Assembly: GCF_004571075.1 (NCBI RefSeq) | Contig: NZ_SPQP01000008.1 | Coordinates: 62,001 to 126,000 of the forward strand | From: Blastococcus sp. TF02A-35 | GTDB taxonomy: Bacteria; Actinomycetota; Actinomycetes; Mycobacteriales; Geodermatophilaceae | Reading direction: 5' to 3' | DNA length: 64,000 nt | Shown here: piece by piece, positions 2,843 to 29,279 of the stretch | Position numbering within the stretch: position 1 is the stretch's first letter | Layout: each line of letters starts with the position of its first letter | The notes under the pieces: generated by a model | The model's input: the letters and a program-made list of their open reading frames with translations, nothing else | Database searches by the model: none | What the model was told of the DNA's origin: nothing | Translations under genes and position numbers: made by a program

Positions 2843-3648
2843 TCAGCTCTTCGGCCGTGCGCCGGCGCGCAGGGCGCCGAGCAGGTCGTGGTTCAGCCGG
2901 GAGATGGTCTCCATCGAGATGCCCTTCGGGCAGGCGGCCGAGCACTCGCCGATGTTCGTGCAGCCACCGAAGCCCTCGCGGTCCTGCTGGGCGACCATGT
3001 TGACCACGCGGTCGTCCCGCTCCGGCTGCCCCTGGGGGAGCAGGCCGAGGTGGGTCACCTTGGCGGCGGTGAACAGCATCGAGGAGGCGTTCGGGCAGGC
3101 CGCCACGCAGGCGCCGCAGCCGATGCAGGTGGCGGCGTCGAACGCGGCGTCCGCGTCGGCCTTGGGCACCGGGGTGGCGTGCGCCTCCGGGGCCGTGCCG
3201 GTCGGGACCGAGATGTAGCCGCCGGCCTGGATGATCCGGTCGAACGCCCGCCGGTCGACGGCGAGGTCCTTGATCACCGGGAACGGCGAGGCGCGCCACG
3301 GCTCGATGTCGATCGAGTCGCCGTCCTTGAACGAGCGCATGTGCAGCTGGCAGGTGGTGGTCTGCTGCGGACCGTGCGCCTGCCCGTTGATCATCAGACC
3401 GCACATGCCGCAGATGCCCTCGCGGCAGTCGTGGTCGAAGGCGACCGGGTCGTCGCCCTGCATGATCAGCTGCTCGTTGAGCACGTCGAGCATCTCGAGG
3501 AAGGACATGTCCGGCGAGATGTCGGTGACCTTGTAGGTCACCATCTTGCCCTTGACCGACGGGTCCTTCTGCCGCCAGATGCGCAGGGTCAGGTTCATCC
3601 CGAGCTTCTCGTCGGCCGGGTTGCCGACGCTGGACTGCATGCTGGCTG

Positions 3649-3652
<4 letters not shown>
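2843..3652 (-). CDS. sdhB: Succinate dehydrogenase iron-sulfur subunit
   Basis: Electron-transfer subunit of succinate:menaquinone oxidoreductase, 269 residues from the GTG at 3652 whose GTGA overlaps the sdhA stop. The plant-type [2Fe-2S] loop is CREGICGMC (C76, C81, C84) with a fourth Cys about 20 residues later (TTTCQL). The C-terminal half carries [12 protein letters not shown] (C176-C186) and [12 protein letters not shown] (C231-C241), the ligands of the [4Fe-4S] and [3Fe-4S] clusters. Last gene of sdhCAB, with the order and subunit sizes of mycobacterial Sdh1. An ATG at 3640 is an alternative start. Confidence 0.95.
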
Positions 3653-5595
<1,943 letters not shown>

Positions 5596-7813: not shown

Positions 7814-9385
7814 ATGACGACGACCGCCCCGCACCCCACGCCGGCGCTGGACCCCGCCCTGGTCGCCCGGCTCGCCGCCCTGGTCACCGCAGCTCCCGAC
7901 CGCCCCAGGCAGGCCTCGCACGCGCCGTTCACCGGCGACGTCGTCGGTGAGGTGCCGACCTGCACCGCCGAGGACGTGCAGGAGGCGCAGCGCCGGGCGC
8001 GCGCGGCCCAGGTCGAGTGGGCGCGCCGCCCGATCGCCGAGCGCTGCGCCGTGATGCTGCGCTACCACGACCTGGTCCTGGAGCGGCAGGAGCAGATCCT
8101 CGACGTCGCCCAGACCGAGACCGGCAAGGCGCGGGTCAGCGCCTTCGAGGAGCTGGCCGACGTCGCCATGACGGCGCGGTACTACGCGAACACCGCGGCG
8201 AAGCACCTGCGGCCGACCCGCCGCCAGGGCGCGCTGCCGGTGCTCACGAGGACCACCGAGCACCACCACCCCAAGGGCCTGGTCGGCGTCATCAGCCCGT
8301 GGAACTACCCGCTCACCCTCGCCGTCTCCGACGCGATCCCGGCGCTGCTCGCGGGCAACGGCGTCGTGCTCAAGCCCGACGCACAGACCCCGTTCACCGC
8401 GCTGATCGCCGTCGAGCTGCTCTACGAGGCCGGCCTGCCGCGCGACCTGCTCCAGGTGGTCACCGGCGCCGGCCGGGTGCTGGGGACGCCGCTGATCGAG
8501 GGCGTCGAGTACCTGATGTTCACCGGCTCCACCGCCACCGGGCGCACCGTGGCCGAGCAGTGCGCCCGCCGGCTGATCGGCTTCTCCGCCGAGCTGGGCG
8601 GCAAGAACCCGATGGTCGTGCTGGCCGACGCCGACCTGGAGAAGACGGTCGAGGGCGCGGTGCGGGCCTGCTTCTCGAACTCCGGCCAGCTGTGCATCTC
8701 GGTGGAGCGCATGTACGTCGAGGACGCCATCTACGACCGGTTCGTGCCCGCGTTCGTCAAGCGGGTGGAGCGGATGAAGCTCGCGGCCGGGTTGACCTGG
8801 GACGCGGAGATGGGGTCGCTGGTGAGCCAGGACCAGCTCGACGTCGTCTCCCGGCACGTCGACGACGCCGTCGCGAAGGGCGCCCGCGTGCTCGCCGGTG
8901 GCAAGGCGCGCCCCGACCTCGGGCCGCTGTTCTACGAGCCGACCGTGCTGGAGGGCGTCACCGACGGGATGGAGCTGACCCGCGACGAGACCTTCGGCCC
9001 GGTGGTGGCCATCAGCCGGGTCCGCGACGCCGAGGAGGCGGTCGAGCGGGCCAACGACACCGAGTACGGGCTGAACGCCAGCGTCTGGTCCACGCCGCGC
9101 CGCGGCGCGGAGATCGCCACCCGCATCCGGTCGGGCACGGTGAACGTGAACGAGGCGTACGCCGCGGCCTGGGCCTCGCACGACGCCCCGATGGGCGGGA
9201 TGAAGGACTCGGGCGTGGGCCGCCGGCACGGCGCCGAGGGCATCCTGAAGTACACCGAGTCGCAGACCGTCGCCGTCCAGCGCGGCGTGCCCGTCGGGCC
9301 GCTGCCGGGTCTCCCGCTGGACCGCTACGCGAAGGTCATGACGGCGGGGCTCAAGGCGCTCAAGCGGGCGCCCTTCATCCGCTGA
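7814..9385 (+). CDS. gabD2: Succinate-semialdehyde dehydrogenase (GabD2 type)
   Basis: Aldehyde dehydrogenase of 523 residues that oxidises succinic semialdehyde to succinate with NAD(P)+, feeding the TCA cycle and the succinate dehydrogenase encoded nearby. General-base E260 is in ELGGKNP and the catalytic thiol is C294 in SGQLCIS; the cofactor segment SPWNYPLTL is also present. The long N-terminus and the C-terminal YAKVMTAGLKALKRAPF tail are typical of actinobacterial GabD2. The ATG at 7814 follows CAGGGT by 6 nt. Its last 11 nt overlap the end of the convergent LysR gene. Confidence 0.85.
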   Translation: MTTTAPHPTPALDPALVARLAALVTAAPDRPRQASHAPFTGDVVGEVPTCTAEDVQEAQRRARAAQVEWARRPIAERCAVMLRYHDLVLERQEQILDVAQTETGKARVSAFEELADVAMTARYYANTAAKHLRPTRRQGALPVLTRTTEHHHPKGLVGVISPWNYPLTLAVSDAIPALLAGNGVVLKPDAQTPFTALIAVELLYEAGLPRDLLQVVTGAGRVLGTPLIEGVEYLMFTGSTATGRTVAEQCARRLIGFSAELGGKNPMVVLADADLEKTVEGAVRACFSNSGQLCISVERMYVEDAIYDRFVPAFVKRVERMKLAAGLTWDAEMGSLVSQDQLDVVSRHVDDAVAKGARVLAGGKARPDLGPLFYEPTVLEGVTDGMELTRDETFGPVVAISRVRDAEEAVERANDTEYGLNASVWSTPRRGAEIATRIRSGTVNVNEAYAAAWASHDAPMGGMKDSGVGRRHGAEGILKYTESQTVAVQRGVPVGPLPGLPLDRYAKVMTAGLKALKRAPFIR

Positions 9386-10289
9386 CGGCGGCGAGCAGGG
9401 CCGCGATGGTCTCCGCCACGGAGGGCAGGGACTCGGCGCCGGGGGCATGGGCGAGCAGGAGCCGGCGGCCCTGGGGTGGGACCAGGGCCGCCGTCACGGT
9501 GTGCGAGGGGCTGGCGGCGGCAAGCGCCAGTTCCGGGAGGAGAGCGACCCCGAGCCCGGCCGCGACGAGCGTCTGCGTGACCACGTAGTCGTCGGTGACA
9601 TGCCGGATGTCGGGGGTGAAGCCGGCGACCGCGGCGCACTCCATGAGGTGGGTGCGGCAGCGCACGCAGCCGGCCACCCACTGCTCGTCGCTCAGGTCGG
9701 CGAGTGACACCTCGGGGTCCGCAGCTCGAGGGTGCCCGGGCGGCAGGACAGCGCGGATCGGGTCGTCGGCCAGCGGCAGGGTCACCAGGTCCTCGAAGGA
9801 CTCGCCCTCCTCGTCGTAGGCGAACAGGAGTGCCAGATCGACCTCGCCGGCCAGCAGCAGCTGCCGGGCGACGGCAGGGTCGGCCTCGGTGAGGCGGACC
9901 TGCAGCTCGGGAAAGCGCTCGGCCAGCTGCCTCATCGCCCTGGGCACGAGGGTCGCGCTCGCGGACGGGAACGCGGCCAGCCGGACCCGGCCCGCGCGGA
10001 GGTCGGCGAGTGCGGACAGCTCCTCCGCGGCGACGCCGAGCCGGGCCGCGATCGCATCCGCGTGGCGGAGCAGCACCTGCCCGGCCTCGGTCAGCCGGAT
10101 CCCCCGGGCGCTGCGGAGCAGCAGCGGTTGGCCGAGGTCGCGTTCCAGTCGCTTGAGCTGCTGGCTCACGGCCGGTGCCGTCCAACCCAGCTCCCGCGCA
10201 GCGGCCGACATCGATCCGGCCCGCCCGACGGTCCGGAAGACGAGCAGCCGTCGCGGGTCGACTTCCGGAACTGCCTGGTCGCGGGCCAT
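9375..10289 (-). CDS. LysR-family transcriptional regulator
   Basis: A 304-residue LysR regulator. The N-terminal winged helix-turn-helix (residues about 12-70, FRTVGRAGSMSAAARELGWT then APAVSQQLKRLE) is followed by a periplasmic-binding-like effector domain (about 95-295). It is transcribed away from the SAT/EamA-JAMM/CysK-like/AlaX operon, and the 63-nt gap between them holds an array of GAAGC/GCTTC half-sites. It is therefore the likely regulator of that operon; the co-inducer is probably the pathway product or a precursor. CVRCRTHLMEC in the effector domain brings three cysteines close together, which could sense thiols or redox state. Its 3' end overlaps gabD2. Confidence 0.88.
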   Translation of the reverse strand: MARDQAVPEVDPRRLLVFRTVGRAGSMSAAARELGWTAPAVSQQLKRLERDLGQPLLLRSARGIRLTEAGQVLLRHADAIAARLGVAAEELSALADLRAGRVRLAAFPSASATLVPRAMRQLAERFPELQVRLTEADPAVARQLLLAGEVDLALLFAYDEEGESFEDLVTLPLADDPIRAVLPPGHPRAADPEVSLADLSDEQWVAGCVRCRTHLMECAAVAGFTPDIRHVTDDYVVTQTLVAAGLGVALLPELALAAASPSHTVTAALVPPQGRRLLLAHAPGAESLPSVAETIAALLAAVSG

Positions 10290-10297
10290 GGATCATT

Positions 10298-10347
10298 GAA
10301 GCCCGCTGGGGCGCTTCGCGGAAGCCGCAGGGTGTGAAGCGCTGCTT
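10298..10347. promoter_or_regulatory. Probable LysR operator array
   Basis: Five half-sites lie between the divergent LysR and SAT-like genes: GAAGC (10298-10302), GCTTC (10313-10317), GAAGC (10321-10325), GAAGC (10336-10340) and GCTT (10344-10347). They form a GAAGC-N10-GCTTC inverted repeat and two compact N3 palindromes. This fits binding of a LysR tetramer at an upstream recognition site and a downstream activation site. Confidence 0.5.
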
Positions 10348-10352
10348 GGGGG

Positions 10353-11486
10353 ATGCTGAACCAGAACGGCCTTGTTCCGGTCTGGGGGGCTCCCCACCAT
10401 GAGGACGTGGTCACCGCCGAGACCGTCCGCCCGTCCGGAACCGCCCGCACCGCGCCCGTCGCCCCACGCCGACCGGCCGCCGCTGTCACCGTCCCCGTGT
10501 CACCCGAGTGCCGGGTCGACGTCGACGCCGTGGAGTCCCGCCTGTGGTGGCTCCTCGTCGCCCGGCTCCCGGCGGAGCTCGCCGGGTCGCTGCGCCCCGA
10601 CGTCGTCGTCGCAGCCGTGCGTCGCGCGACCGACCTGGCGCTGCGTGACCTGCACGGACTGGTCGCCCGCGATCCGGCGGCGATCTCGGCGGCATATGCG
10701 CTGACCAGCTACGTGTGCTTCCGAGCCGTGGCGTCCCACCGCCTGGCCCACGAGCTGCACCGGCTCGCGGACCGTGAGCCGGCCTCGGCAGAGCTGCTGC
10801 GAGGAGCGGCACGGGGCCTCGCCGAGCGGACCAAGGTCGAGACCGGGGTCGAGATCCACCCGGCCGCCCGCATCGGCGCGCGGTTCGTCCTCGACCACGG
10901 CGTGGGGACGGTCATCGGGGAGACGGCGGTGGTGGGTGAGGACTGCTACGTGCTGCAGGGGGTGGTCCTCGGGTCGGTCGGCATCGCGGACAACCCGACC
11001 GGCCCGCGTCATCCCACCGTGGGTGACCGGGTGGAGATCGGGTCGTTCGTGCGGGTGCTGGGGCCGGTGACGGTCGGCAGCGACTGCGTTCTCGATCCGC
11101 ACACCGTCGTGACCACCGACGTCCCGGCCGGCAGCCGGGTGCGCCTGGTGACCCAGCACCAGGTCACGTCGGGGACGGAGGCCACGTGGGTCGCCGGTGT
11201 CCGGCTCTGCCGGGGCCGGGTGACCGTGTGGGGCAGTGACCTGGCCGGGGTGACACCCCAGTTGCTGGAGCCTGATGGAACCGTCGTCGAGCTCAGGGTG
11301 GCCGTCCGTTCCGAGGAGCGGCTGGAGGCCGAGCTGCCCTCGCACCTGGGTGCGGTCGCCGGTGACCTCCTGCTGGTGGAGGAGGGTGAGCGATGTCGCC
11401 GTGCCCGTGTACGGCTGACCCATCAGTGGGCCGAGCGGCAGCACCGTTCCTGCGCGACGTGCCCACGGCGCGAGGACGTGCGGTGA
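10353..11486 (+). CDS. Serine O-acetyltransferase-like protein with extra C-terminal domain
   Basis: A left-handed beta-helix acyltransferase related to CysE. The catalytic Asp-His pair is D181-H182 in VLDHGVGTVIGET, followed by hexapeptide repeats (AVVGEDCYVLQGVVLG, VGDRVEIGSFVRVLG). It should acetylate L-serine or a similar amino acid. About 100 residues are added after the helix, perhaps a small beta-sandwich, ending in a cysteine tail CATCPRRED. The usual short CysE tail that docks into CysK is not recognisable. The start is uncertain: ATG 10353 or GTG 10407. It is the first gene of a four-gene operon and overlaps the next by a GTGA. Confidence 0.78.
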   Translation: MLNQNGLVPVWGAPHHEDVVTAETVRPSGTARTAPVAPRRPAAAVTVPVSPECRVDVDAVESRLWWLLVARLPAELAGSLRPDVVVAAVRRATDLALRDLHGLVARDPAAISAAYALTSYVCFRAVASHRLAHELHRLADREPASAELLRGAARGLAERTKVETGVEIHPAARIGARFVLDHGVGTVIGETAVVGEDCYVLQGVVLGSVGIADNPTGPRHPTVGDRVEIGSFVRVLGPVTVGSDCVLDPHTVVTTDVPAGSRVRLVTQHQVTSGTEATWVAGVRLCRGRVTVWGSDLAGVTPQLLEPDGTVVELRVAVRSEERLEAELPSHLGAVAGDLLLVEEGERCRRARVRLTHQWAERQHRSCATCPRREDVR

Positions 11487-12928
11487 GCGGTGGCTCGGGC
11501 GCACCCACGGCCAGGAATGTGCTGCTCGGGGTCGTCTACCTGCTGATCGTGCTGATCTGGGGCACGACCTGGTACGCGATGAAGGTGTCGGTGGAGTCGA
11601 TCCCGCCGATCACCTCTGCCGGCCTGCGCTTCGCCTGCGCGTTCCCCTTCCTGCTCGTCGCCGTGTGGCTCGTGCCGTCGTGGCGTCTCCTGCCCCCGCC
11701 GGGCAGTCGCTGGCTGGCGGCGGTGCTCACCGTCAGCTACGTGGCCGTTCCGTATGCGCTGATCAACTACGGCGAGCAACGCACCTCGTCGGGGCTGGCC
11801 GCGATCATCTTCGCCTCGGTCACGGTGCTGCTCGTCGTCATGTCGGTGGCGCTCGGCACCACCCGCGTCACGCCGGTGCAGTGGGGAGCGATCACCGTGG
11901 GCCTCGGATTGCTGGCGGCTCTGGTGATCGCGGCGGGCGAGGGGCTCGGCGTCTCCAGCCCGGTCGGCCCGCTGGCGATCTTCGTCGCCGCCGTTCTGCA
12001 CGCGCTGAGCTACGCCCTGATCGCCCGGTTCGGCCGCGAGGTCGATGTCATCAGCCTGGAGGTGCTGCCCATCGGCCTGGGTGGGGCGCTCCTGCTGGCG
12101 CTGGGAGCGGTGGTCGAGCGCCCGGAGATCGGAGCGGTCACGGCGCGCTCCTTCACCGCGGTGCTGTATCTCGCCCTGGTCGCCTCGGTCATCGGCTTCG
12201 CCCTGTACTTCCACCTCCTCCAGCGAGTGACGCCGGTCGTCGGCTCCTTCGTGTTCATCTTCTTCCCGATCGTGGCCCTGGGACTGTCGGTCGCGCTGGA
12301 GGGCGTGCGCTTCACCGTGCCCATGGCACTCGCCGTCCTCGGGGTGCTCGTGGCCTTCTCGGTCGCGAAGACGGCCGGCGCCGGGGCGCCGGCGGAGACG
12401 GCGGAGGTCTCCGAGGGTGTGCTCGCGGGTGCGTGCGCGGCCGCCGAGCGCGCGTTCCCCAAGGAGGCCTGCGGCTTCGGCCTGGTCTCCGGCGAGCTGC
12501 GCGCCGTCGCCAACATGGCCGACGAGAGCGTTGGTCCCGAGGAGGTGCCCTGGCACCGGAGCGGCGAGACGGGCTACGTCATGGCACCGGCCGACGTGCG
12601 CTACCTGGAGGACAGCCTGGACGGGCCCGCTCCGGTCGATCTGATCTACCACTCGCACCCGAACGGGGCCGCGTACTTCTCGGCCGAGGACCTGCGGCAC
12701 GCGGTGTTCGAGGGGCGTCCGGTCTTCCCGGGGGTGCGGCACCTCGTGGTCGGTGTGACCTCCGACGGTGTGCAGGAGGCGGCCCTCTTCGACCTCTCCG
12801 ACGGCACGGCGCGGGAGCTCCGGCGGTGGGGCCGGGAAGCGCTGCCCGCTCGGGGCACCCGGGGCGACCGCAGGGCGGAGCACCCGCCGGCTCCGGACTC
12901 CCTGGTGCACTCGGAGGTCCGGGGATGA
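11483..12928 (+). CDS. EamA-family exporter fused to a JAMM metallopeptidase domain
   Basis: A 481-residue fusion. Residues about 10-300 form ten hydrophobic helices in the two-EamA-repeat pattern of drug/metabolite exporters, a group that includes cysteine/O-acetylserine exporters. Residues about 315-440 form an MPN/JAMM domain with a full metal motif: E328 (KEACGFG) and H390-S-H392-x7-S400-x2-D403. This domain resembles Mec of Mycobacterium, which frees cysteine from the carrier CysO. With ten helices the peptidase should face the cytosol. The GTG at 11483 overlaps the SAT-like stop, and ATGA couples it to the CysK-like gene. Exported substrate and peptidase target are unknown. Confidence 0.85.
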   Translation: MSGGSGAPTARNVLLGVVYLLIVLIWGTTWYAMKVSVESIPPITSAGLRFACAFPFLLVAVWLVPSWRLLPPPGSRWLAAVLTVSYVAVPYALINYGEQRTSSGLAAIIFASVTVLLVVMSVALGTTRVTPVQWGAITVGLGLLAALVIAAGEGLGVSSPVGPLAIFVAAVLHALSYALIARFGREVDVISLEVLPIGLGGALLLALGAVVERPEIGAVTARSFTAVLYLALVASVIGFALYFHLLQRVTPVVGSFVFIFFPIVALGLSVALEGVRFTVPMALAVLGVLVAFSVAKTAGAGAPAETAEVSEGVLAGACAAAERAFPKEACGFGLVSGELRAVANMADESVGPEEVPWHRSGETGYVMAPADVRYLEDSLDGPAPVDLIYHSHPNGAAYFSAEDLRHAVFEGRPVFPGVRHLVVGVTSDGVQEAALFDLSDGTARELRRWGREALPARGTRGDRRAEHPPAPDSLVHSEVRG

Positions 12929-13887
12929 CCCTGCTGTCCTCGGTGCTGGACGCGGTGGGCGGGACGCCGCTCGTCCGTCTCGACCGGCTCGCGCCCGCGG
13001 GCACCCGGTTGCTGCTGAAGTGCGAGCAGCTCAATCCCGGCGGCAGCCACAAGGCCCGCATCGCCCTCAACATGATCCGCGCGGCGGAGCGGGACGGCTG
13101 GCTCACGCCGGGCTCGGGGCAGACGATCCTCGAGCCGACCGGCGGGAACACGGGCATGGGCATCGCGATGGCAGCGGCCGTCCTGGGCTATCGGGTGGTG
13201 CTGGTCGTCCCCGACAACTACAGCCTCGACAAGCAGCGGTTGCTGCGAGCGCTGGGAGCCGAGGTCGTGCTGTCCGACAGCACGCGGGGGAACAACTCCC
13301 ACGGTGAGAAGGCGATGGAGCTGCAGTTCGAGAACCCCACGTGGGTGATGCTCAACCAAGGGGCGAACCCGGCCAACCCGGCTGTCCACCGCGACGTGAC
13401 CGCTCGGGAGCTGGTGAGGGACCTGGGTGGCCTCGATCCCGACGTGCTGGTCGCCGGGATCGGCACCGGGGGGCACATCAGTGGCGTGGGCGCGGTGCTG
13501 CGCGAGCGCTACCCCGCCCTCCGGATCATCGGGGTCGAGCCCGAGGGGTGCTCCTTGCGGGAGAATCGTTACCGCCGGCACCGCATCCAGGGGCTGGCGA
13601 TCGGCTACGTGCCCGCGAACCTCGACGTCCGGCTGCTCGACGACGTCTGCACGGTGAGCGAAGGGGAGGCCGTCGCGGGGATGCGAGCGCTGATGCGCAG
13701 CGAGGGGATCTGCGCCGGGGTGTCGACGGGGGCGAACATCGCTGCCTCCCTGCGCCTGGCTGCGCAGCTCCCCCCGGACGCGACGGTGCTGACGTTCGCC
13801 TACGACGGGGCACACGACTACCTGGACCTGCTCGGCGAGGACGGCGCCGACCTGGCCGCCACCACGACGGATGGGACCCAGGCATGA
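12925..13887 (+). CDS. Divergent O-acetylserine sulfhydrylase-like PLP enzyme
   Basis: A fold-type II PLP enzyme of 320 residues close to CysK/CysM. The PLP lysine is K43 in GGSHKAR, where sulfhydrylases have SVKDR-like sequence. The substrate loop is TGGNTG (72-77), the phosphate loop GTGGH (180-184, usually GTGGT), and the residue facing the pyridine nitrogen appears to be T268 in VSTGAN (usually SSGA). These changes suggest beta-replacement on an O-activated serine with a nucleophile other than plain sulfide, though cysteine formation is not excluded. It is coupled by ATGA overlaps to the exporter-JAMM gene before it and the AlaX gene after it. Confidence 0.85.
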   Translation: MTLLSSVLDAVGGTPLVRLDRLAPAGTRLLLKCEQLNPGGSHKARIALNMIRAAERDGWLTPGSGQTILEPTGGNTGMGIAMAAAVLGYRVVLVVPDNYSLDKQRLLRALGAEVVLSDSTRGNNSHGEKAMELQFENPTWVMLNQGANPANPAVHRDVTARELVRDLGGLDPDVLVAGIGTGGHISGVGAVLRERYPALRIIGVEPEGCSLRENRYRRHRIQGLAIGYVPANLDVRLLDDVCTVSEGEAVAGMRALMRSEGICAGVSTGANIAASLRLAAQLPPDATVLTFAYDGAHDYLDLLGEDGADLAATTTDGTQA

Positions 13888-14597
13888 CCGAGCGCTACGA
13901 GCTGGTGGATGCGACGGTCCGTGACTGGGATGCCGTGGTTCTGGCCTCCGGTCCCGACGGCGTCGTCCTGGACCGCTCCGCCTTCTACCCCGGGGGTGGC
14001 GGTCAGCCACCGGATCACGGCGTCCTGCTCTGGGCGGGGGTCCGGACCCGCGTCGTCGGATCTCGTCGCGGTGACGATGTCGTCCTCGTCGTCCACGAGG
14101 AGGACCCCGTTCCCCCGGTGGGGACCGCGGTCCGCGGCGCCCTGGACGACGCCCACCGGACCGCGCTCATGCGGACGCACTCGGCGCTGCACGTGCTCTC
14201 GGCCGTGGTCCACCGTGACTTCGCGGCGCGGGTGACCGGCAGCGGGATGCAGCCCCTGCTGGGGCGCATGGACTTCAACCTGGCCGAGGTCCCCCCGGAC
14301 TTCCGGACGGCCGTGGAGGACGCGTGCAACGCCGCCATCGCGGCAGACCACCGGGTGGAGGTGCGGTTCGTCGCCGCCACCGAGGCCGCCGCGCTACCGG
14401 AGCTGTCGCGGTCCGAGGAGAGCCACGTCCCCGAAGGGCTGGAGATCGTGCGTCTGGTCGACATCGTCGGGCTGGACACCCAGGCCGACGCGGGCACGCA
14501 CGTCGCGTCCACGGCGCAGATCGGCGCGGTGCGCGTGACCAAGCTCGAGAGCAAGGGCAGGGGATTCCGCCGGGTGCGGCTGGCGGTCGAGAACTGA
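13884..14597 (+). CDS. AlaX-type alanyl-tRNA editing domain protein
   Basis: A 237-residue free-standing editing domain of the threonyl/alanyl-tRNA synthetase second additional domain family. It has the FYPGGGGQP entry motif (from residue 34), the metal motif H99-x3-H103 (HSALH), and the second metal motif as D202-A-G-T-H206, where the standard form is C-x3-H. AlaX proteins remove serine or glycine wrongly attached to tRNA-Ala. As the last gene of an amino-acid synthesis and export operon it may clear tRNA mischarged with the pathway product, a self-protection role that is inferred. It is joined to the CysK-like gene by an ATGA overlap. Confidence 0.85.
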   Translation: MTERYELVDATVRDWDAVVLASGPDGVVLDRSAFYPGGGGQPPDHGVLLWAGVRTRVVGSRRGDDVVLVVHEEDPVPPVGTAVRGALDDAHRTALMRTHSALHVLSAVVHRDFAARVTGSGMQPLLGRMDFNLAEVPPDFRTAVEDACNAAIAADHRVEVRFVAATEAAALPELSRSEESHVPEGLEIVRLVDIVGLDTQADAGTHVASTAQIGAVRVTKLESKGRGFRRVRLAVEN

Positions 14598-14623
14598 CCG
14601 TCCGCCGCACCCGGCGACGTGGA

Positions 14624-16747
14624 TCAGGCGGTCACGGTGGGCGGCACCATGGATGCGTTCACCAGCGGCTGCCGGTCCCACGCCCGGTGCATGCCCAGCG
14701 CGGCGATCGTCTCCGCGGACATCGCGGCGTTCGCCTTCTTGCCGGTGATGACGCCGGGGGCCTTGGGGTCGATGCCCGCGGCGCGCAGCACCTCGACGCC
14801 GTCGCCCCACGCCCCGATGCCCTTCAGGTGGCGGAACGCCTCCTGCAGCATCACCAGGGCGCGGAAGTCGCCGTCCTTGGGTGCGCCGTCGGCCACGACG
14901 ATCGCGTCGAACTCGATCGAGCGGCCGGTGGCGAAGGTCCGCTCCACGATCTCGACGTCGCGGCCGCTGACCAGCTGGCCACCGTGCGGGGCGATCACCT
15001 TCACCTGGGCGCCCTCGGCCTCCAGCGCCTCGCGCAGCTTCGCGATGCCCTTCAGGTCGGCCTTCGGGCCGGCGACCACGCCGACGATCCGGCCGTCGAT
15101 CGGGAACGGCGTCGGCTTGATCTGGCGCAGCGCCGGCGACTCGCCGCGCACCTTCTCCGGCTTGATCTTCTTCGGCACCGGCAGACCCAGGCCCGCGGCC
15201 ACCTGCGCGCAGAGCTTCTCGTCGATGCGGGCCAAGATGGTGAGGGCCCGCTCCTTGATCGGCTGCTCGAAGCACTTGCCGAGCTCGAAGGTGTAGGCGT
15301 CGATCACGTGCTGCTGCTCGACGCTGGTCAGGCTCTTGTAGAACAGCGCCGGCTGCGAGAAGTGGTCGTCGAAGGACGCCGGCGCGCTCCGGCCCACCTC
15401 GCCGCTGACCGGCCGCGGCACGTTGACGTAGCCGCCCTCGGACCAGTCGGCCGGGAACGGGCTGCCGCCGTCCACGCTGTTGGGCGTGTAGGGCGCCTGG
15501 CCCTGGTGGACGGCGTGCTGGTGGAAGCCGTCACGGGTGTTGTCGTTCACCGGGGCGTGCGGCCGGTTGACCGGGATCTGGGTGAAGTTCGGTCCGCCCA
15601 GCCGGGTCAGCTGGGTGTCCAGGTAGGAGAAGTTGCGGCCCTGGAGCAGCGGGTCGTTGGTGCCCTCGATGCCCGGCACGAGGTGGCCGGTGTGGAAGGC
15701 GACCTGCTCGGTCTCGGCGAAGAAGTTCGTCGGGTTCGCGTTGAGCACCAGCTTGCCGATCGGCTGCACCGGGGCGAGCTCCTCCGGCACGATCTTGGTC
15801 GGGTCGAGCAGGTCGATGCCCTCGAAGGTCTCCTCCGGGGTGTCGGGGAAGACCTGGATGCCGAGCTCCCACTCCGGGAAGGCGCCGGCCTCGATCGACT
15901 CGTACAGGTCGCGGCGGTGGAAGTCGGGGTCGACACCCGCGGCGATCTGGGCCTCCTCCCAGGTCAGGGAGTGCACGCCCAGCTTCGGCTTCCAGTGGAA
16001 CTTGACCAGCACCGTCTCGCGCTCGGCGTTCACCAGCCGGAAGGTGTGGACGCCGAAGCCCTCCATCGTCCGGTAGCTGCGCGGGATGCCCCGGTCGCTC
16101 ATGTTCCAGATCGTGTGGTGCGTGGCCTCGGTGTGGAGGGTGACGAAGTCCCAGAAGGTGTCGTGGGCCGACTGCGCCTGCGGGATCTCGTGGTCCGGGT
16201 GCGGCTTGCCCGCGTGGATCACGTCGGGGAACTTGATCGCGTCCTGGATGAAGAACACCGGGATGTTGTTGGCGACGAGGTCCCAGGTGCCCTCCTTCGT
16301 GTAGAACTTCGTCGCGAACCCACGGGTGTCGCGCACCGTGTCGGCCGAGCCGCGCGAGCCCAGCACGGTGGAGAAGCGGACGAAGACCGGCGTCTCCAGG
16401 CCCTTCTCGGCCAGGACGGCGGCCCGGGTCACCGAGGCGGCGGTGCCGTAGGCGGTGAAGACGCCGTGGGCGCCGGAGCCGCGGGCGTGCACCACGCGCT
16501 CCGGGATGCGCTCGTGGTCGAAGTGCATGATCTTCTCGCGGAGGTGGAAGTCCTCCAGCAGCACCGGGCCGCGCGGGCCCGCCTTGAGCGAGTGGTCGGT
16601 GTCGGGGATCCGGACACCGTTCGGGGTGGTGAGCGTGTCACCGGCCTGGGCCCGTGGGTCGCGGCCGTCCTTCGGTCCCTCGTAGCCGACACCGGTCGGG
16701 CTGACGGTGCGGGGCGCGGACGTGTTCGGCTTGCGCGTGGGGGGCAC
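14624..16747 (-). CDS. katE: Large-subunit catalase (HPII/KatE type)
   Basis: Clade 2 heme catalase of 707 residues that decomposes hydrogen peroxide. The distal histidine lies in VVHARGSGAHG, the distal asparagine in LVANNIPVFF, and the proximal heme tyrosine in NFSYLDTQLTRLG. The last 150 residues are the flavodoxin/DJ-1-like domain typical of large catalases (DGRIVGVVAGPKADLKG to the C-terminus). The GTG start at 16747 has a GAGGAG ribosome binding site. It is a single gene; an array of TTCCGC/GCGGAA half-sites lies in the divergent upstream region. Confidence 0.95.
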   Translation of the reverse strand: MPPTRKPNTSAPRTVSPTGVGYEGPKDGRDPRAQAGDTLTTPNGVRIPDTDHSLKAGPRGPVLLEDFHLREKIMHFDHERIPERVVHARGSGAHGVFTAYGTAASVTRAAVLAEKGLETPVFVRFSTVLGSRGSADTVRDTRGFATKFYTKEGTWDLVANNIPVFFIQDAIKFPDVIHAGKPHPDHEIPQAQSAHDTFWDFVTLHTEATHHTIWNMSDRGIPRSYRTMEGFGVHTFRLVNAERETVLVKFHWKPKLGVHSLTWEEAQIAAGVDPDFHRRDLYESIEAGAFPEWELGIQVFPDTPEETFEGIDLLDPTKIVPEELAPVQPIGKLVLNANPTNFFAETEQVAFHTGHLVPGIEGTNDPLLQGRNFSYLDTQLTRLGGPNFTQIPVNRPHAPVNDNTRDGFHQHAVHQGQAPYTPNSVDGGSPFPADWSEGGYVNVPRPVSGEVGRSAPASFDDHFSQPALFYKSLTSVEQQHVIDAYTFELGKCFEQPIKERALTILARIDEKLCAQVAAGLGLPVPKKIKPEKVRGESPALRQIKPTPFPIDGRIVGVVAGPKADLKGIAKLREALEAEGAQVKVIAPHGGQLVSGRDVEIVERTFATGRSIEFDAIVVADGAPKDGDFRALVMLQEAFRHLKGIGAWGDGVEVLRAAGIDPKAPGVITGKKANAAMSAETIAALGMHRAWDRQPLVNASMVPPTVTA

Positions 16748-25929: not shown

Positions 25930-26640
25930 CTAGGTGTGGAGACCGCACTCCGTCTTGCCGCGGCCGGCCCAGCGCCCGGCGCGCGGGTCCTCGCCAGGGG
26001 CGACGGGACGGGTGCACGGCGCGCAGCCGATCGAGCCGTAGCCGACCTCGAACAGCGGGTTCACCGGGATCTGGTGCTCGACGGTGTAGGCGTCGACGAC
26101 GTCCTGGGTCCAGGCCGCCATCGGGTTGACCTTCACCATGCCGCGCTTGGCGTCCCAGTCGACGAGCCTCGTGCCGGCGCGGGTCGGCGACTCGTCGCGC
26201 CGCACCCCGGAGCCCCAGGCGGTGAAGCCGGCCAGCGCCTGGGCCAGCGGCTTGACCTTGCGCAGGTCGCAGCACAGGTCCGGGTCGCGGTCGTGCAGCT
26301 TCGCGCCGAACGAGAGGTCCTGCTCGGCGACGGTCTGCGGCGGGGTGACGTTGTGCAGGGTGATCGGCAGGACGCTGCTGATCCAGTCGCGGGTGCCGAT
26401 GGTCTCGGCGAAGTGGTAGCCGGTGTCGAGGAAGACGACGTTGACCCCGGGGATCACCCGGCTGGCCAGGTGCGAGAGCAGGCCGTCGGCCATGGACGAG
26501 GTGATGGCGAACCGGTCGCCGAACGTCTCCCCGGCCCAGGTCAGCACGGCGAGCGCCTGCTCGACGGGGTCGGCGATGCCCTCGAAGCGTGCGTCGGCCT
26601 CGGCGGCCATCTCCGGCGTGGCGACGACTGCTGTCGTCAT
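25930..26640 (-). CDS. cysH: Assimilatory adenylylsulfate (APS/PAPS) reductase
   Basis: Reduces activated sulfate to sulfite with thioredoxin; 236 residues. The cysteine pair C123-C124 (LCCDLRK) and C206/C209 (GCAPC) are the ligands of a [4Fe-4S] cluster, which marks the bacterial APS-reductase type. The catalytic cysteine is C232 in KTECGLH. The nucleotide-binding stretch TSSMADGLLSH and LDTGYHFAET are present. It overlaps the 54-residue zinc-ribbon gene by ATGA and belongs to the cysC-sir-cysH run. Confidence 0.94.
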   Translation of the reverse strand: MTTAVVATPEMAAEADARFEGIADPVEQALAVLTWAGETFGDRFAITSSMADGLLSHLASRVIPGVNVVFLDTGYHFAETIGTRDWISSVLPITLHNVTPPQTVAEQDLSFGAKLHDRDPDLCCDLRKVKPLAQALAGFTAWGSGVRRDESPTRAGTRLVDWDAKRGMVKVNPMAAWTQDVVDAYTVEHQIPVNPLFEVGYGSIGCAPCTRPVAPGEDPRAGRWAGRGKTECGLHT

Positions 26641-26801
26641 CCCTGCACCCCCGTCGCGATCAGGCGGACCGAGAAGGCCCGCAGGCAGGCGCCGCAGCGC
26701 CAGCCCTGGTCGTCGTGCGGCGTGAGGTCCTCGTCGCCGCAGTACGGGCAGTGGAACACCGGCAGCTGCCGGGTCCTTCCCGACGTCGCCTCCTCGGTCA
26801 C
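26637..26801 (-). CDS. 54-residue zinc-ribbon protein between sir and cysH
   Basis: A small protein with two CxxC knuckles: C18-P-Y-C21 and C36-G-A-C39, spaced like a rubredoxin-like zinc ribbon. It starts at GTG 26801 with GAGAGGG upstream, 10 nt past the sir stop, and its TGA overlaps the cysH ATG. The tight spacing shows it is a real gene. Small CxxC proteins occur at this position in other actinobacterial sulfite reductase operons, and the ferredoxin-like cysX of Corynebacterium is comparable. An electron-transfer or assembly role for sulfite or APS reductase is inferred. Confidence 0.8.
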   Translation of the reverse strand: MTEEATSGRTRQLPVFHCPYCGDEDLTPHDDQGWRCGACLRAFSVRLIATGVQG

Positions 26802-26811
26802 AGCGGCCCTC

Positions 26812-28485
26812 TCACAGCAGCCAGGCCTCCTCGGCGCGGGAGACGTAGTGCGCGAAGGACTCGCCGGGCGTGCGGCGCTCGAGGAAACCGCGCAGCAGCC
26901 GCTCGCAGTAGTCGGCGGTCTCGGCCTTGGTCACCTTGTGGCCGCGGAACTTGCGGCCGAAGGTGGCCTCCACGCCGAGGTGGCCGCCGAGGTGCACCTG
27001 GAAGCCCTCGACCATCTCGCCGTTGTCGTCCTTGACCATCGAGCCCTTGAACCCGATGTCGGCGGTCTGGAAACGGGCGCAGCTGTTCGGGCAGCCGTTG
27101 ACGTTGATCCCGATCGGGGTGTCGAAGTCCGGCAGCCGCTTCTCCAGCTCGGCGTACAGGTCCTGCGCGTGCTGCTTGGTCTCGACGATCGCGAGCTTGC
27201 AGAACTCCAGGCCGGTGCAGGCCATCGTCCCGCGGCGGAAGGCGCTCGGGCGGACCTGCAGGTCGTGCTCGGCGAGCGCGTCGACCAGCGCCTCCACCGA
27301 CTCGTCCGGCACGTCGAGGATGACCAGCTTCTGCTGGGTCGTCGTCCGGATGCGGCCCTGGCCGTACTCGTCGGCCAGGTTCGCGATCGTGGTCAGCAGG
27401 GAGCCGCTGATCCGGCCGGTGCGCAGCGCGAAGCCGACGGCGTTGAGGCCGTCCTTCTGCCGGCTGACGCCGACGTGGTCCCGCTGGTCGTGCTTGGCCG
27501 GGGCCGGCGCCGGGCCGTCGGGCAGCTGGGCGTGCAGGTACTCGTCCTCCAGCACCTGGCGGAACTTCTCCGGCCCCCAGTCGGCCATGAGGAACTTGAT
27601 GCGGGCGCGGTTGCGCTGCCGGCGGTAGCCGTAGTCGCGGAAGACCGAGGTGCAGGCGGCCCACACGTCGGTGACCTGGTCCGGCCGCACGAAGACGCCG
27701 ACCCGCTGGGCGAACATCGGGTTGGTCGAGAGGCCGCCGCCGACCCAGAGGTCGTAGCCGGCCTCGCCTGCCTCGTTGACCACGCCGACGAAGGAGACGT
27801 CGTCGATCTCGGGCTCGGTGCAGTGGTCCACGCACCCCGACATCGAGGTCTTCCACTTGCGCGGCAGGTTGCTGAACTCCGGGCTGCCGACGTACTTCTC
27901 GACGGTGGCGGCGATGACGTCGGTGGCGTCGATGACCTCGTCCTCGAGGATGCCGGCCAGCGGGCAGCCGAGCATCACGCGCGGCACGTCGCCGCAGGCC
28001 TCCATCGTGGAGAGCCCGACCGACTCCAGCCGGCGCCAGATCTCGGGCACGTCCTCGATGCGGATCCAGTGGTACTGCACGTTCTGCCGGTCGGTGACGT
28101 CGGCGACGTCGCGGCCGAACTCGGTGCTGATCCCGCCCAGGACGCGGAGCGCGTCGCTGGTGAGCTGCCCGCCGTCGATGCGGGCGCGCATCATGAAGTA
28201 GGAGTCCTCGAGCTCCTCCGGCTCCAGGACGGCGGTCTTGCCGCCGGGGATCCCCTGGGCGCGCTGGGTGTAGAGGCCCATCCAGCGCATGCGGCCACGG
28301 AGGTCACCCGGGTCGATCGACTCGAAGCCGGCCTTGGAGTAGATGTCGAGGATCCGCTGACGGACCTCGAGCCCGTCGGAGTCCTTCTTCATCCGCTCGT
28401 TCGGGTTGAGCGGCTCGCGGTAGCCCAGCGCCCACTGGCCCTGGCCGCGTTGCGGCCGGTTGCTGGTGCGGGTGGGGGTGCTCAC
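26812..28485 (-). CDS. sir: Ferredoxin-type sulfite reductase
   Basis: Siroheme/[4Fe-4S] enzyme of 557 residues reducing sulfite to sulfide for cysteine synthesis. It has two nitrite/sulfite reductase half-domains; the cluster and siroheme ligands lie in TMACTGLEFCKLAIVETK and NVNGCPNSCARFQ. The N-terminal half has DRQNVQYHWIRIEDVPEIW. The sequence is typical of actinobacterial sulfite reductases (SirA), which take electrons from ferredoxin. A good ribosome binding site, AGGAAGAAG, precedes the GTG at 28485. About 105 nt upstream a cysteine leader peptide ends, so sir expression is probably attenuated by cysteine supply. Confidence 0.94.
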   Translation of the reverse strand: MSTPTRTSNRPQRGQGQWALGYREPLNPNERMKKDSDGLEVRQRILDIYSKAGFESIDPGDLRGRMRWMGLYTQRAQGIPGGKTAVLEPEELEDSYFMMRARIDGGQLTSDALRVLGGISTEFGRDVADVTDRQNVQYHWIRIEDVPEIWRRLESVGLSTMEACGDVPRVMLGCPLAGILEDEVIDATDVIAATVEKYVGSPEFSNLPRKWKTSMSGCVDHCTEPEIDDVSFVGVVNEAGEAGYDLWVGGGLSTNPMFAQRVGVFVRPDQVTDVWAACTSVFRDYGYRRQRNRARIKFLMADWGPEKFRQVLEDEYLHAQLPDGPAPAPAKHDQRDHVGVSRQKDGLNAVGFALRTGRISGSLLTTIANLADEYGQGRIRTTTQQKLVILDVPDESVEALVDALAEHDLQVRPSAFRRGTMACTGLEFCKLAIVETKQHAQDLYAELEKRLPDFDTPIGINVNGCPNSCARFQTADIGFKGSMVKDDNGEMVEGFQVHLGGHLGVEATFGRKFRGHKVTKAETADYCERLLRGFLERRTPGESFAHYVSRAEEAWLL

Positions 28486-28556
28486 GTGGCGTACTTCTTC
28501 CTGCGCTCTGCGCCGTCCGGCAGCGGGCCGGGAGACGAGGCGCTGCTGGATCGGGA

Positions 28557-28575
28557 CGCAGCCGGAGGAGCTGCG
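28557..28575 (-). promoter_or_regulatory. Hairpin with anti-Shine-Dalgarno loop between leader peptide and sir
   Basis: On the minus strand CGCAGC-TCCTCCG-GCTGCG forms a small stem whose loop carries TCCTCC, complementary to the AGGAAG(A)AG ribosome binding site of sir (28502-28494). It could switch between masking and exposing that site depending on ribosome position in the leader peptide. Confidence 0.4.
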
Positions 28576-28590
28576 CGGAGGAACCGGGGG

Positions 28591-28677
28591 TCAGCGCACG
28601 GGGCGACAGGCGGCGCTGGAGACCAGCGCCAGATCGATGTGCAGCCGCGCAACGAGGAGCGCGCCGCGGTCGGTCAT
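28591..28677 (-). CDS. Cysteine leader peptide of the sulfite reductase gene
   Basis: A 28-codon reading frame ATG to TGA upstream of sir. Its product contains HIDLALVSSAACRPVR, the signature of short actinobacterial leader peptides found ahead of sulfur genes (His-x-Asp-Leu ... Ser-Ala-x-Cys-Arg near the end). In mycobacteria such cysteine-containing small frames are often leaderless and control the next gene by ribosome stalling at the Cys codon when cysteine is short. Here the Cys is codon 24. A CACCCT hexamer lies 6 nt before the ATG, consistent with a leaderless start. Confidence 0.8.
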   Translation of the reverse strand: MTDRGALLVARLHIDLALVSSAACRPVR

Positions 28678-28742
28678 GCGTCAAGGGTGCCACAAGAGCG
28701 GCGCCGGGCCGCCGTGCACCGGCTCACACGGGTGAGCCGGGG

Positions 28743-29279
28743 TCAGCCGCGGTCCATCTCCGCACGGATGCGGGCGACGGACTCCGTCAGCGGCGTCACC
28801 GACGTGTCGATGACGAGCTCGGCGCGGGCCGGGGGCTCGTAGGGGTCGCTGACGCCGGTGAACCCGGGGATCTCGCCGGCGCGCGCCTTGGCGTACAGCC
28901 CCTTCACGTCGCGGTCCTCGCACACCTCGAGCGGGGTGGAGAGGTGCACGAGCACGAACCGGCCGTGCTCCTCCACCAGCCGGCGGGCGTCGGCGCGGGC
29001 GGCCTCGTAGGGCGCGATGGCGGCGACCACGACCGTCCCGCCGTGCTTGACCACCTCGCCGGACACCCAGCCGATCCGCCGGATGTTGAGGTCGCGGTGC
29101 TCCTTGGAGAAGTCCAGCTCGCTGGACAGGTGCGTGCGGACGACGTCGCCGTCGAGCACGGTGACCGGCCGGCCCTCCGCCTCCAGCTGGGCGACCAGCG
29201 CGTCGGCGATCGTGGACTTGCCCGCGCCCGAGAGGCCGGTCAGGAAGACGGTGACACCGGGGCGCTGCGCAGCGGTCAT
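28743..29279 (-). CDS. cysC: Adenylylsulfate kinase
   Basis: Converts APS to PAPS; 178 residues. The P-loop is GLSGAGKST (residues 15-23), followed by LDGDVVRTHLSSELDFS, the HRDLNIRRIGWV segment and the FTGVSDPYEPP stretch, all standard for CysC. CysH here looks like an APS reductase, so CysC may serve PAPS-dependent sulfotransfer as much as assimilation. It lies between the Rrf2 regulator and the sir leader peptide, same strand. The ATG is preceded by CGGAGACACTGG. Confidence 0.93.
   Translation of the reverse strand: MTAAQRPGVTVFLTGLSGAGKSTIADALVAQLEAEGRPVTVLDGDVVRTHLSSELDFSKEHRDLNIRRIGWVSGEVVKHGGTVVVAAIAPYEAARADARRLVEEHGRFVLVHLSTPLEVCEDRDVKGLYAKARAGEIPGFTGVSDPYEPPARAELVIDTSVTPLTESVARIRAEMDRG

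Follow-up and report, generated by a model that had tools for sequence, protein, structure and literature searches.

We analysed a window of 64,000 nucleotides from the actinobacterium Blastococcus sp. TF02A-35 (contig NZ_SPQP01000008.1, positions 62,001 to 126,000; coordinates below are those of the window), which carries an inserted island of five genes between an aldehyde dehydrogenase gene and katE. Four of these genes, which encode a serine acetyltransferase (SAT)-like protein, an EamA exporter fused to a JAMM metallopeptidase, a CysK-like pyridoxal 5'-phosphate (PLP) enzyme and the alanyl-tRNA editing protein AlaX, follow one another with overlapping ends on the plus strand, in the opposite orientation to the gene of a LysR-type regulator. 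The SAT-like and CysK-like genes occur as a pair in five genomes, in four of which a JAMM gene lies beside the pair. We favour, at a probability of about 0.55, the reading that the island is a horizontally acquired cassette that makes a small beta-substituted L-alanine, and not the ordinary cysteine of proteins, with release by the JAMM domain, export and tRNA proofreading. The features are as follows.

9386..14601, no strand: inserted block (island), between the aldehyde dehydrogenase gene (end 9385) and katE (14624-16747, minus strand)
9375..10289, minus strand: LysR-type regulator, 304 aa (PF00126, PF03466)
10290..10496, no strand: divergent regulatory region of about 207 bp, with an imperfect palindrome at 10361-10385
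10497..11486, plus strand: serine-acetyltransferase-like protein, 329 aa from GTG 10497 (377 aa from ATG 10353)
11148..11486, plus strand: C-terminal extension of the SAT-like protein, about 113 aa, aligned in four members (window, G896, G958 and Parafrankia)
11483..12928, plus strand: EamA exporter fused to a JAMM metallopeptidase, 481 aa, GTG start (PF00892, E 8.9e-28; PF14464, Prok-JAB, E 1.6e-8)
12431..12736, plus strand: JAMM domain with active-site residues (EACGF, YHSHP, S, D), from a Prok-JAB match above cut-off and alignments
12925..13887, plus strand: CysK-like PLP enzyme, 320 aa, with SHKAR and TGGN motifs (PF00291, PALP, E 9.4e-75)
13884..14597, plus strand: AlaX-M-type alanyl-tRNA editing protein, 237 aa, divergent (tRNA_SAD; NF040865, AlaXM, 206.2 bits)

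A first-pass annotation made from the DNA letters had described these five genes with LysR divergent from the others, and the Pfam and NCBIfam assignments agree with it. The three overlaps that it had reported between the four genes are exact when read off the sequence (GTGA at 11483-11486, ATGA at 12925-12928 and ATGA at 13884-13887).

Enzymes of the island

In an alignment of the CysK-like enzyme with 61 relatives, its lysine 43 falls on their PLP lysine; these relatives are the distinct sequences besides those of the window and Parafrankia that were left from 65 collected at E<=1e-25 after short matches and sequences with stops were dropped. The S-H-K-x-R and TGGN motifs were found in none of the 61; an aspartate follows the PLP lysine in 60 of them, and the serine of the T-S-G-N loop is likewise present in 60. 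The five CysK-like members agree at ten positions where no more than 5% of the relatives have the same residue, as counted over 61 sequences, or over 23 for two positions close to the C-terminus. Four of the ten are H42, which directly precedes the PLP lysine, G73 of the T-S-G-N loop, C209 and D298. The five members form one clade with an SH-aLRT (approximate likelihood-ratio test) support of 97 in a tree calculated without bootstrap. The enzyme scored under the cysteine synthase cut-offs of TIGR01136 (295.1 vs 344.15 bits) and TIGR01139 (292.2 vs 350.95 bits). As controls, the cysteine synthases of loci L119 and L122 passed both cut-offs with 443.8-464.2 bits (443.8 and 446.3 for the first), and the CysK of locus L065 passed the first with 360.0 bits and fell just under the second with 348.1.

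The SAT-like protein contains the hexapeptide family PF00132 and its best NCBIfam match is cysE, with scores under the curated cut-offs of both cysE (134.9 vs 210.65 bits) and EpsC (118.9 vs 150 bits). The control SATs of loci L009 and L011 passed both models, and the cluster copy of L065 passed EpsC only. Its DHG and RHP motifs are kept, since D133, H134, R171 and H172 are invariant across 13 aligned SAT sequences. In a tree with ordinary SATs the five SAT-like members form a clade with support of 100/100, and six positions common to the five are as rare (at most 5%) in 43 distinct relatives, which were filtered in a similar way to those of CysK. The tail that forms the C-terminal extension measures 7-86 residues in 39 of these 43 SATs, the remaining four running off their loci, where it is unmeasurable; no Pfam match was found for the last 78 residues of the SAT-like protein. 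Because the Parafrankia homologue starts at the corresponding place, GTG 10497 is a more likely start than ATG 10353. The LysR and SAT-like genes are then about 207 bp apart, and between them the imperfect palindrome CCAGAACGG-N7-CCGGTCTGG (10361-10385) is a candidate LysR site. Judged by these alignments, scores and trees, the SAT-like and CysK-like proteins are subfamilies set apart from ordinary CysE and CysK.

The EamA and JAMM parts of the fusion lie in one open reading frame. A JAMM motif consists of a catalytic glutamate and HxHP-x(n)-S-xx-D, and this JAMM/MPN+ catalytic motif is present as EACGF and YHSHPNGAAYFSAED. The catalytic residues are common to the island JAMM and a Mec-like protein of the host, whereas the identity to the latter is 25-27% compared to 43-47% within the new group. 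At E<=1e-8, the JAMM domain was found in one of 394 genomes of the class, that of Blastococcus sp. TF02A-35 itself.

A competing explanation, which we regard as doubtful, is that the SAT-like and CysK-like enzymes make ordinary L-cysteine, perhaps from carrier-bound sulfur freed by the JAMM domain, while any excess of cysteine or O-acetylserine leaves through EamA and AlaX removes Ser-tRNA-Ala. All three enzymes have homologues in cysteine synthesis, and among solved structures the PLP enzyme comes closest to a cysteine synthase, followed by O-ureido-L-serine synthase (3x43, 3.3e-66). The EamA part, with YedA as its best match (E 2.6e-21), also weakly matches an O-acetylserine/cysteine exporter model (E 2.3e-4); an ordinary SAT/CysK pair in another genome (L149, G891) likewise lies beside a weak EamA-family match (27%), and transporters next to such pairs may be more general. 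In addition, the excerpted text of Iyer et al. 2006 (PMC1779556) describes operons in which cysteine synthase goes together with JAB and a ThiS/MoaD-like protein, actinobacteria included. However, the CysK-like enzymes share deviations next to the PLP lysine and in the TSGN loop, which argue against ordinary cysteine, there is no carrier gene among the island's five, and the host, by eye, already has a Mec-CysO-CysM set (L054) and CBS-CGL (cystathionine beta-synthase and gamma-lyase) genes (L055).

Insertion of the island and recurrence of its core

The first-pass annotation had placed the block between housekeeping genes, which the comparison of related genomes bears out more strongly than it was claimed. 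Matches to katE at E<=1e-50 were found in nine of 23 genomes of the genus, own counted, and six of the other eight have an empty site, where 31-73 nt separate the end of the dehydrogenase match from the beginning of the katE match (in window coordinates, 9379-9386 and 14602-14634, respectively). Of the remaining two, one lacks a dehydrogenase match (L060) and one has a different junction (L063). The annotation's slightly less GC-biased codons were also recovered: the GC content at third codon positions (GC3) of the five island genes is 0.911 when pooled, with a range of 0.882-0.928, compared to a minimum of 0.937 and a median of 0.975 in 35 other window genes picked by hand. Since the flanks adjoin in six related genomes and the GC3 lies below that of the 35 genes, the block 9386-14601 is taken as one insertion, and these observations support its horizontal acquisition from a foreign source. 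No direct repeats of at least 9 bp were found at the two island ends in the 120 bp examined. No close plasmid copies were found: the best 20 of 275 SAT-matching plasmid records were only 34-44% identical over 42-60% of the query, none of 830 records covered 80% of the EamA-JAMM fusion, and all CysK-like matches were under 60% identity (610 records; 511 in a second search). A phage or virus origin was rejected, as the viral JAMM matches were weak (seven at 34% over 85 residues and one at 58% over 26), no viral match to the JAMM of genome G958 (see below) was found and the fusion was not found in phages.

The SAT search of the class at E<=1e-25 matched 107 of 394 genomes, with 821 bits for the own genome, 188 for Parafrankia sp. 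EUN1f (G339) and 122 for the next; that of the order at E<=1e-42 matched 39 of 249, with 531 bits for the own genome, 242.5 for G896 and 218 for the next. Other searches found a SAT in 7 of 60 relatives at E<=1e-20, the own genome being the sole one within its family, in 1 of 35 genomes of the G339 family and, at E<=1e-40, in 3 of 81 of the genus of G896; a search of genome contigs with two narrow peptide patterns gave one locus. The SAT was found in one of 23 genomes of the genus (own), which has no second SAT match, and in none of 35 other family genomes at E<=1e-20 (22 of the same genus and 13 of the same family), which suggests that the window's family may lack CysE.

In G896 (L155) and G940 (L159), the SAT, the EamA-JAMM fusion and the CysK-like gene lie together, divergent from a MocR-type regulator with GntR and aminotransferase domains; compared to the window, the G896 fusion is 51% identical over its full length and the CysK-like enzyme 64%. 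Genome G095, which has no SAT match, shows an empty site in which the lipoprotein-like gene known from the CysK side of the G896 island lies about 60 nt from an alaX-xseA block. The empty site therefore indicates a second clean insertion of about 5.1 kb beside alaX, common to G896 and G940. By eye, GC-rich terminator-like hairpins lie between the flanking genes at the empty sites (junctions of L057, L058, L059, L061, L062 and L064; L193 9060-9170), and in several of them the insertion of the window island replaces such a hairpin between the two convergent flanking genes; the hairpin spots of both islands look as if they were insertion targets.

In G958 (L160), the SAT, a free-standing JAMM protein (about 170 residues, 43% identical) and the CysK-like enzyme (62%) are encoded between non-ribosomal peptide synthetase (NRPS) genes with condensation, adenylation and carrier domains. 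Their neighbours encode a major facilitator superfamily transporter, an Asp/Glu-racemase-family protein, an aldo/keto reductase and an FAD oxidoreductase, and no EamA match was found at the trio. An alaX gene, a leucyl-tRNA synthetase-like gene and a 2-oxoglutarate-Fe dioxygenase gene lie about 26-31 kb upstream. The position of this copy within an NRPS cluster is a further argument against a cassette for ordinary cysteine. As side observations on the cluster (G958:C1, about 1504-1543 kb; L160, L190 and L192), the dioxygenase belongs to PF10014, a fatty-acid-desaturase-family protein is also encoded, and one gene is amidinotransferase-like by eye, with no Pfam match. Of the adenylation-domain codes, one reads as leucine-like, from code positions that we take to be the relevant ones, and one is unfamiliar, which is a lead only; two NRPS genes gave no motif hit.

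In Parafrankia sp. EUN1f (NZ_ADGX01000277.1), the CysK-like gene lies directly upstream of the SAT. Around the pair lie a partial PatB-like C-S lyase/aminotransferase gene (L052 3-509, minus strand) and an M20 amidohydrolase gene (3246-4559, minus strand), the latter an amide hydrolase where the other loci have JAMM. That the gene set turns up again in further genomes argues against a chance assembly. The first-pass annotation had counted a lack of conservation of the AlaX or EamA-JAMM genes with the PLP enzyme among the findings that would speak against its reading. The fusion does accompany the SAT and CysK-like genes in two genomes, and a free JAMM gene does so in a third, while AlaX lies outside the core.

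Other loci from the order search were considered as the same system and rejected, because CysK carries SVKDR in six of them (L148-L152 and L154); L153 and L045 have no CysK in the flank examined. These eight loci (L148-L154 and L045) were the ones examined, the other 29 matching genomes being left out. The pair on a Streptomyces zaomyceticus plasmid (L065) was rejected by its CysK motifs, SIKDR and TSGN. A search by pattern and by eye for a small carrier with a C-terminal GG gave no convincing candidate in the scanned loci.

As for the surroundings of the window island, the 3' end of the LysR gene overlaps that of the dehydrogenase gene, and LysR reached no NCBIfam cut-off among the 25 listed of 58 matches. 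A sigma-70 consensus scan of 9300-14800 gave no match, and a promoter/terminator scan was also empty. By eye, CysH-, sulfite-reductase- and CysC-like genes of sulfate assimilation lie at 25930-29279, 11 kb from the island.

AlaX and the predicted product

The AlaX protein matches tRNA_SAD and tRNA-synt_2c in Pfam, and its THSALH (HxxxH) motif aligned with archaeal alanyl-tRNA synthetase (AlaRS). The score of 206.2 bits is under the NF040865 cut-off of 300, as are those of three actinobacterial orthologues (212.9-231.0). At E<=1e-25, AlaX was found in 72 of 394 class genomes including the own, mostly 55-65% identical, and the island copy is the only match in its genome. We compared it to the 29 best loci of the 71 other matching genomes, adding 13 weaker ones for the tree. 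Of the positions conserved in at least 93% of the 29 orthologues, the window AlaX differs at 19 and each orthologue at 0-11. Before GTH it has an alanine where all 29 have a glycine; HxxxH is retained. Its end branch of 0.73 is the longest in the 43-row tree (median 0.074). This divergence fits a changed substrate or relaxed constraint.

Another reading is that the CysK-like and AlaX genes are drifting, unneeded genes of a decaying insertion and that their functional linkage is accidental. The long AlaX branch and the presence of the SAT in only one of 23 genomes of the genus are in line with this. We consider it very unlikely, because the four frames are open and overlapping, the active-site residues of the JAMM and SAT proteins and the PLP lysine are kept, and the Ka/Ks ratios (nonsynonymous to synonymous rates) between G896 and G940 are below 1 (0.075 for the CysK-like gene, 0.178 for the fusion and 0.411 for the SAT).

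For each reaction, the export cargo and the signal of the regulator, we infer the following for a beta-substituted alanine. LysR would switch the set on. The SAT-like enzyme would acetylate L-serine to O-acetylserine, from which the S-H-K-x-R PLP enzyme would eliminate acetate and add a nucleophile to the aminoacrylate. The JAMM domain would hydrolyse an amide-type bond and so free the nucleophile or the product, possibly from a host-supplied MoaD/CysO-like carrier as for Mec, and the fused EamA domain would export the product. If AlaRS loads tRNA-Ala with the new amino acid, AlaX would hydrolyse it off. A beta-substituted alanine with self-protection, as in the first-pass annotation, fits the altered CysK-like motifs, the copy in an NRPS cluster and the divergent AlaX. 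Known AlaXp proteins hydrolyse Ser- and Gly-tRNA-Ala, as given in an excerpt of PMC11295145. Human AlaRS loads BMAA (beta-N-methylamino-L-alanine), a small beta-amino-alanine, and fails to edit it, according to the available part of PMC7904546; a diaminopropionate- or BMAA-like product is therefore one candidate, and no more.

More tentatively, we propose that the SAT, the JAMM protein and the S-H-K-x-R PLP enzyme may be a new biosynthetic trio, in which JAMM would free the beta-substituent or the product from a protein or peptide carrier, and the cell would either export the new small amino acid as an antimetabolite, with the EamA fusion and a retuned AlaX, or build it into a non-ribosomal peptide, as in G958. 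If so, the fusion would couple release to membrane export.

Several points weigh against a new beta-substituted alanine with its own protection. Altered motifs alone are no proof of a different nucleophile, and the data do not distinguish a modified cysteine, which the first-pass annotation had offered, from plain cysteine or other beta-substituted alanines. The cargos of EamA proteins are diverse, and the JAMM substrate is a guess because no MoaD/ThiS-like gene is among the island genes. In the trees, the bootstrap of the SAT clade is not yet settled, the Parafrankia CysK-like branch is 4.2 long and drew a warning of the tool about long branches meeting, and the placement of AlaX inside a large group has weak support (84/57). 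In the other genomes the transferable core does not include AlaX: it was not found at E<=1e-25 in the Parafrankia genome, it lies about 30 kb off the trio in G958, and in G896 and G940, which share one insertion site and therefore count as one event, alaX is a pre-existing neighbour of the island, the alaX-xseA pair being present in G095 without it. Moreover, no other island gene was found beside AlaX at 29 other loci (flanks to about 1.5 kb, E<=1e-3). The G095 pair and these 29 loci speak against AlaX as a conserved cassette member, and its linkage rests on its place inside the window island, beside the island of G896 and G940 and, more loosely, in G958.

The same genes could instead form a detoxification or resistance island against an external serine- or alanine-like antimetabolite, which the acetyltransferase would modify, the PLP enzyme beta-eliminate, JAMM free from peptides and EamA pump out, with AlaX editing the mischarged tRNA. 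The island is mobile and has its own LysR, exporter and editing protein, and the Parafrankia pair lies near the partial PatB-like C-S lyase and M20 amidohydrolase genes. This explanation appears unlikely, since a SAT and CysK pair is a standard way to build beta-substituted alanines, the G958 trio lies within an NRPS cluster, and the trios of G896, G940 and G958 have no AlaX of their own in the island. There is nevertheless a precedent for it in CtdA, a dedicated deacylase against the foreign antimetabolite canavanine, as described in the available excerpt of PMC10018355.

If the beta-substituted alanine reading is true, the island would be a compact and transferable route to a new amino acid, with a membrane exporter that bears its own metallopeptidase, an AlaX of possibly retuned specificity and a JAMM hydrolase linked to beta-replacement outside the CysO system. 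No description of this gene combination or logic was found in the literature searched, most subscription journals lying outside the search. The S-H-K-x-R/TGGN signature and the JAMM motif provide search handles for further clusters, and the NRPS-embedded G958 copy could make the product accessible via a peptide.

Comparison with known systems

The first-pass annotation had compared the island to the D-cycloserine pathway and to CysO/CysM/Mec. Both comparisons stand as analogies but not as membership, as the island encodes neither a further Dcs-type enzyme nor a MoaD-like carrier. To our knowledge, the D-cycloserine pathway has no JAMM, EamA or AlaX. It shares with the island a SAT-like and a cysteine-synthase-like PLP enzyme (DcsE, serine acetyltransferase, and DcsD, O-ureidoserine synthase), and the product of DcsE is O-acetylserine according to the available text of PMC10214352. 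In contrast, none of the island's five genes is of a further Dcs type, and O-ureidoserine synthase 3x43 has S-V-K-D-R and T-S-G-N where the island enzyme has SHKAR and TGGN.

The Mec/CysO/CysM system also combines JAMM with a cysteine-synthase-like enzyme, and the JAMM catalytic residues are as in the host Mec-like protein; the island differs in that its JAMM is fused to an exporter (free in G958), a SAT is present and a MoaD-like carrier gene is lacking. The host CysO-like gene (L054 8790-9068, minus strand) ends by eye in GGC, with a cysteine after the di-glycine. In the operons of Iyer et al. 2006, JAB likewise adjoins cysteine synthase, whereas ThiS/MoaD and often E1-like proteins accompany them and no SAT, EamA fusion or AlaX is named in the excerpted text (PMC1779556).

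In ordinary SAT/CysK pairs the two genes also adjoin (L065; L148-L152 and L154). They differ in their SVKDR or SIKDR and [TS]SGN motifs and, for L065, in scores mostly near or above the curated cut-offs; no JAMM match was found in the examined flanks of L148-L154 and none is annotated in L065. The L065 cluster (NZ_CP108063.1), with a SAT, an ordinary-motif CysK, two ATP-grasp genes and NikS, is a further candidate for making an amino acid from O-acetylserine, which ligases would then join.

Fluorothreonine producers offer a tested precedent for the protective logic, in that FthB hydrolyses fluorothreonyl-tRNA and FthC is the exporter of the amino acid, as stated in the available part of PMC7408626; CtdA, which acts against canavanine, is a second one. 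FthB is related to ProXp-ST1 in the excerpt of PMC11295145, and the island deacylase, an AlaX, is set apart from it by these descriptions, as is the island exporter by its fusion to JAMM. The trans-acting aminoacyl-tRNA deacylase and the amino-acid exporter in the cluster of that toxic amino acid have their counterparts in AlaX and EamA, and the protective logic of the island would, by analogy, resemble that of FthB and FthC.

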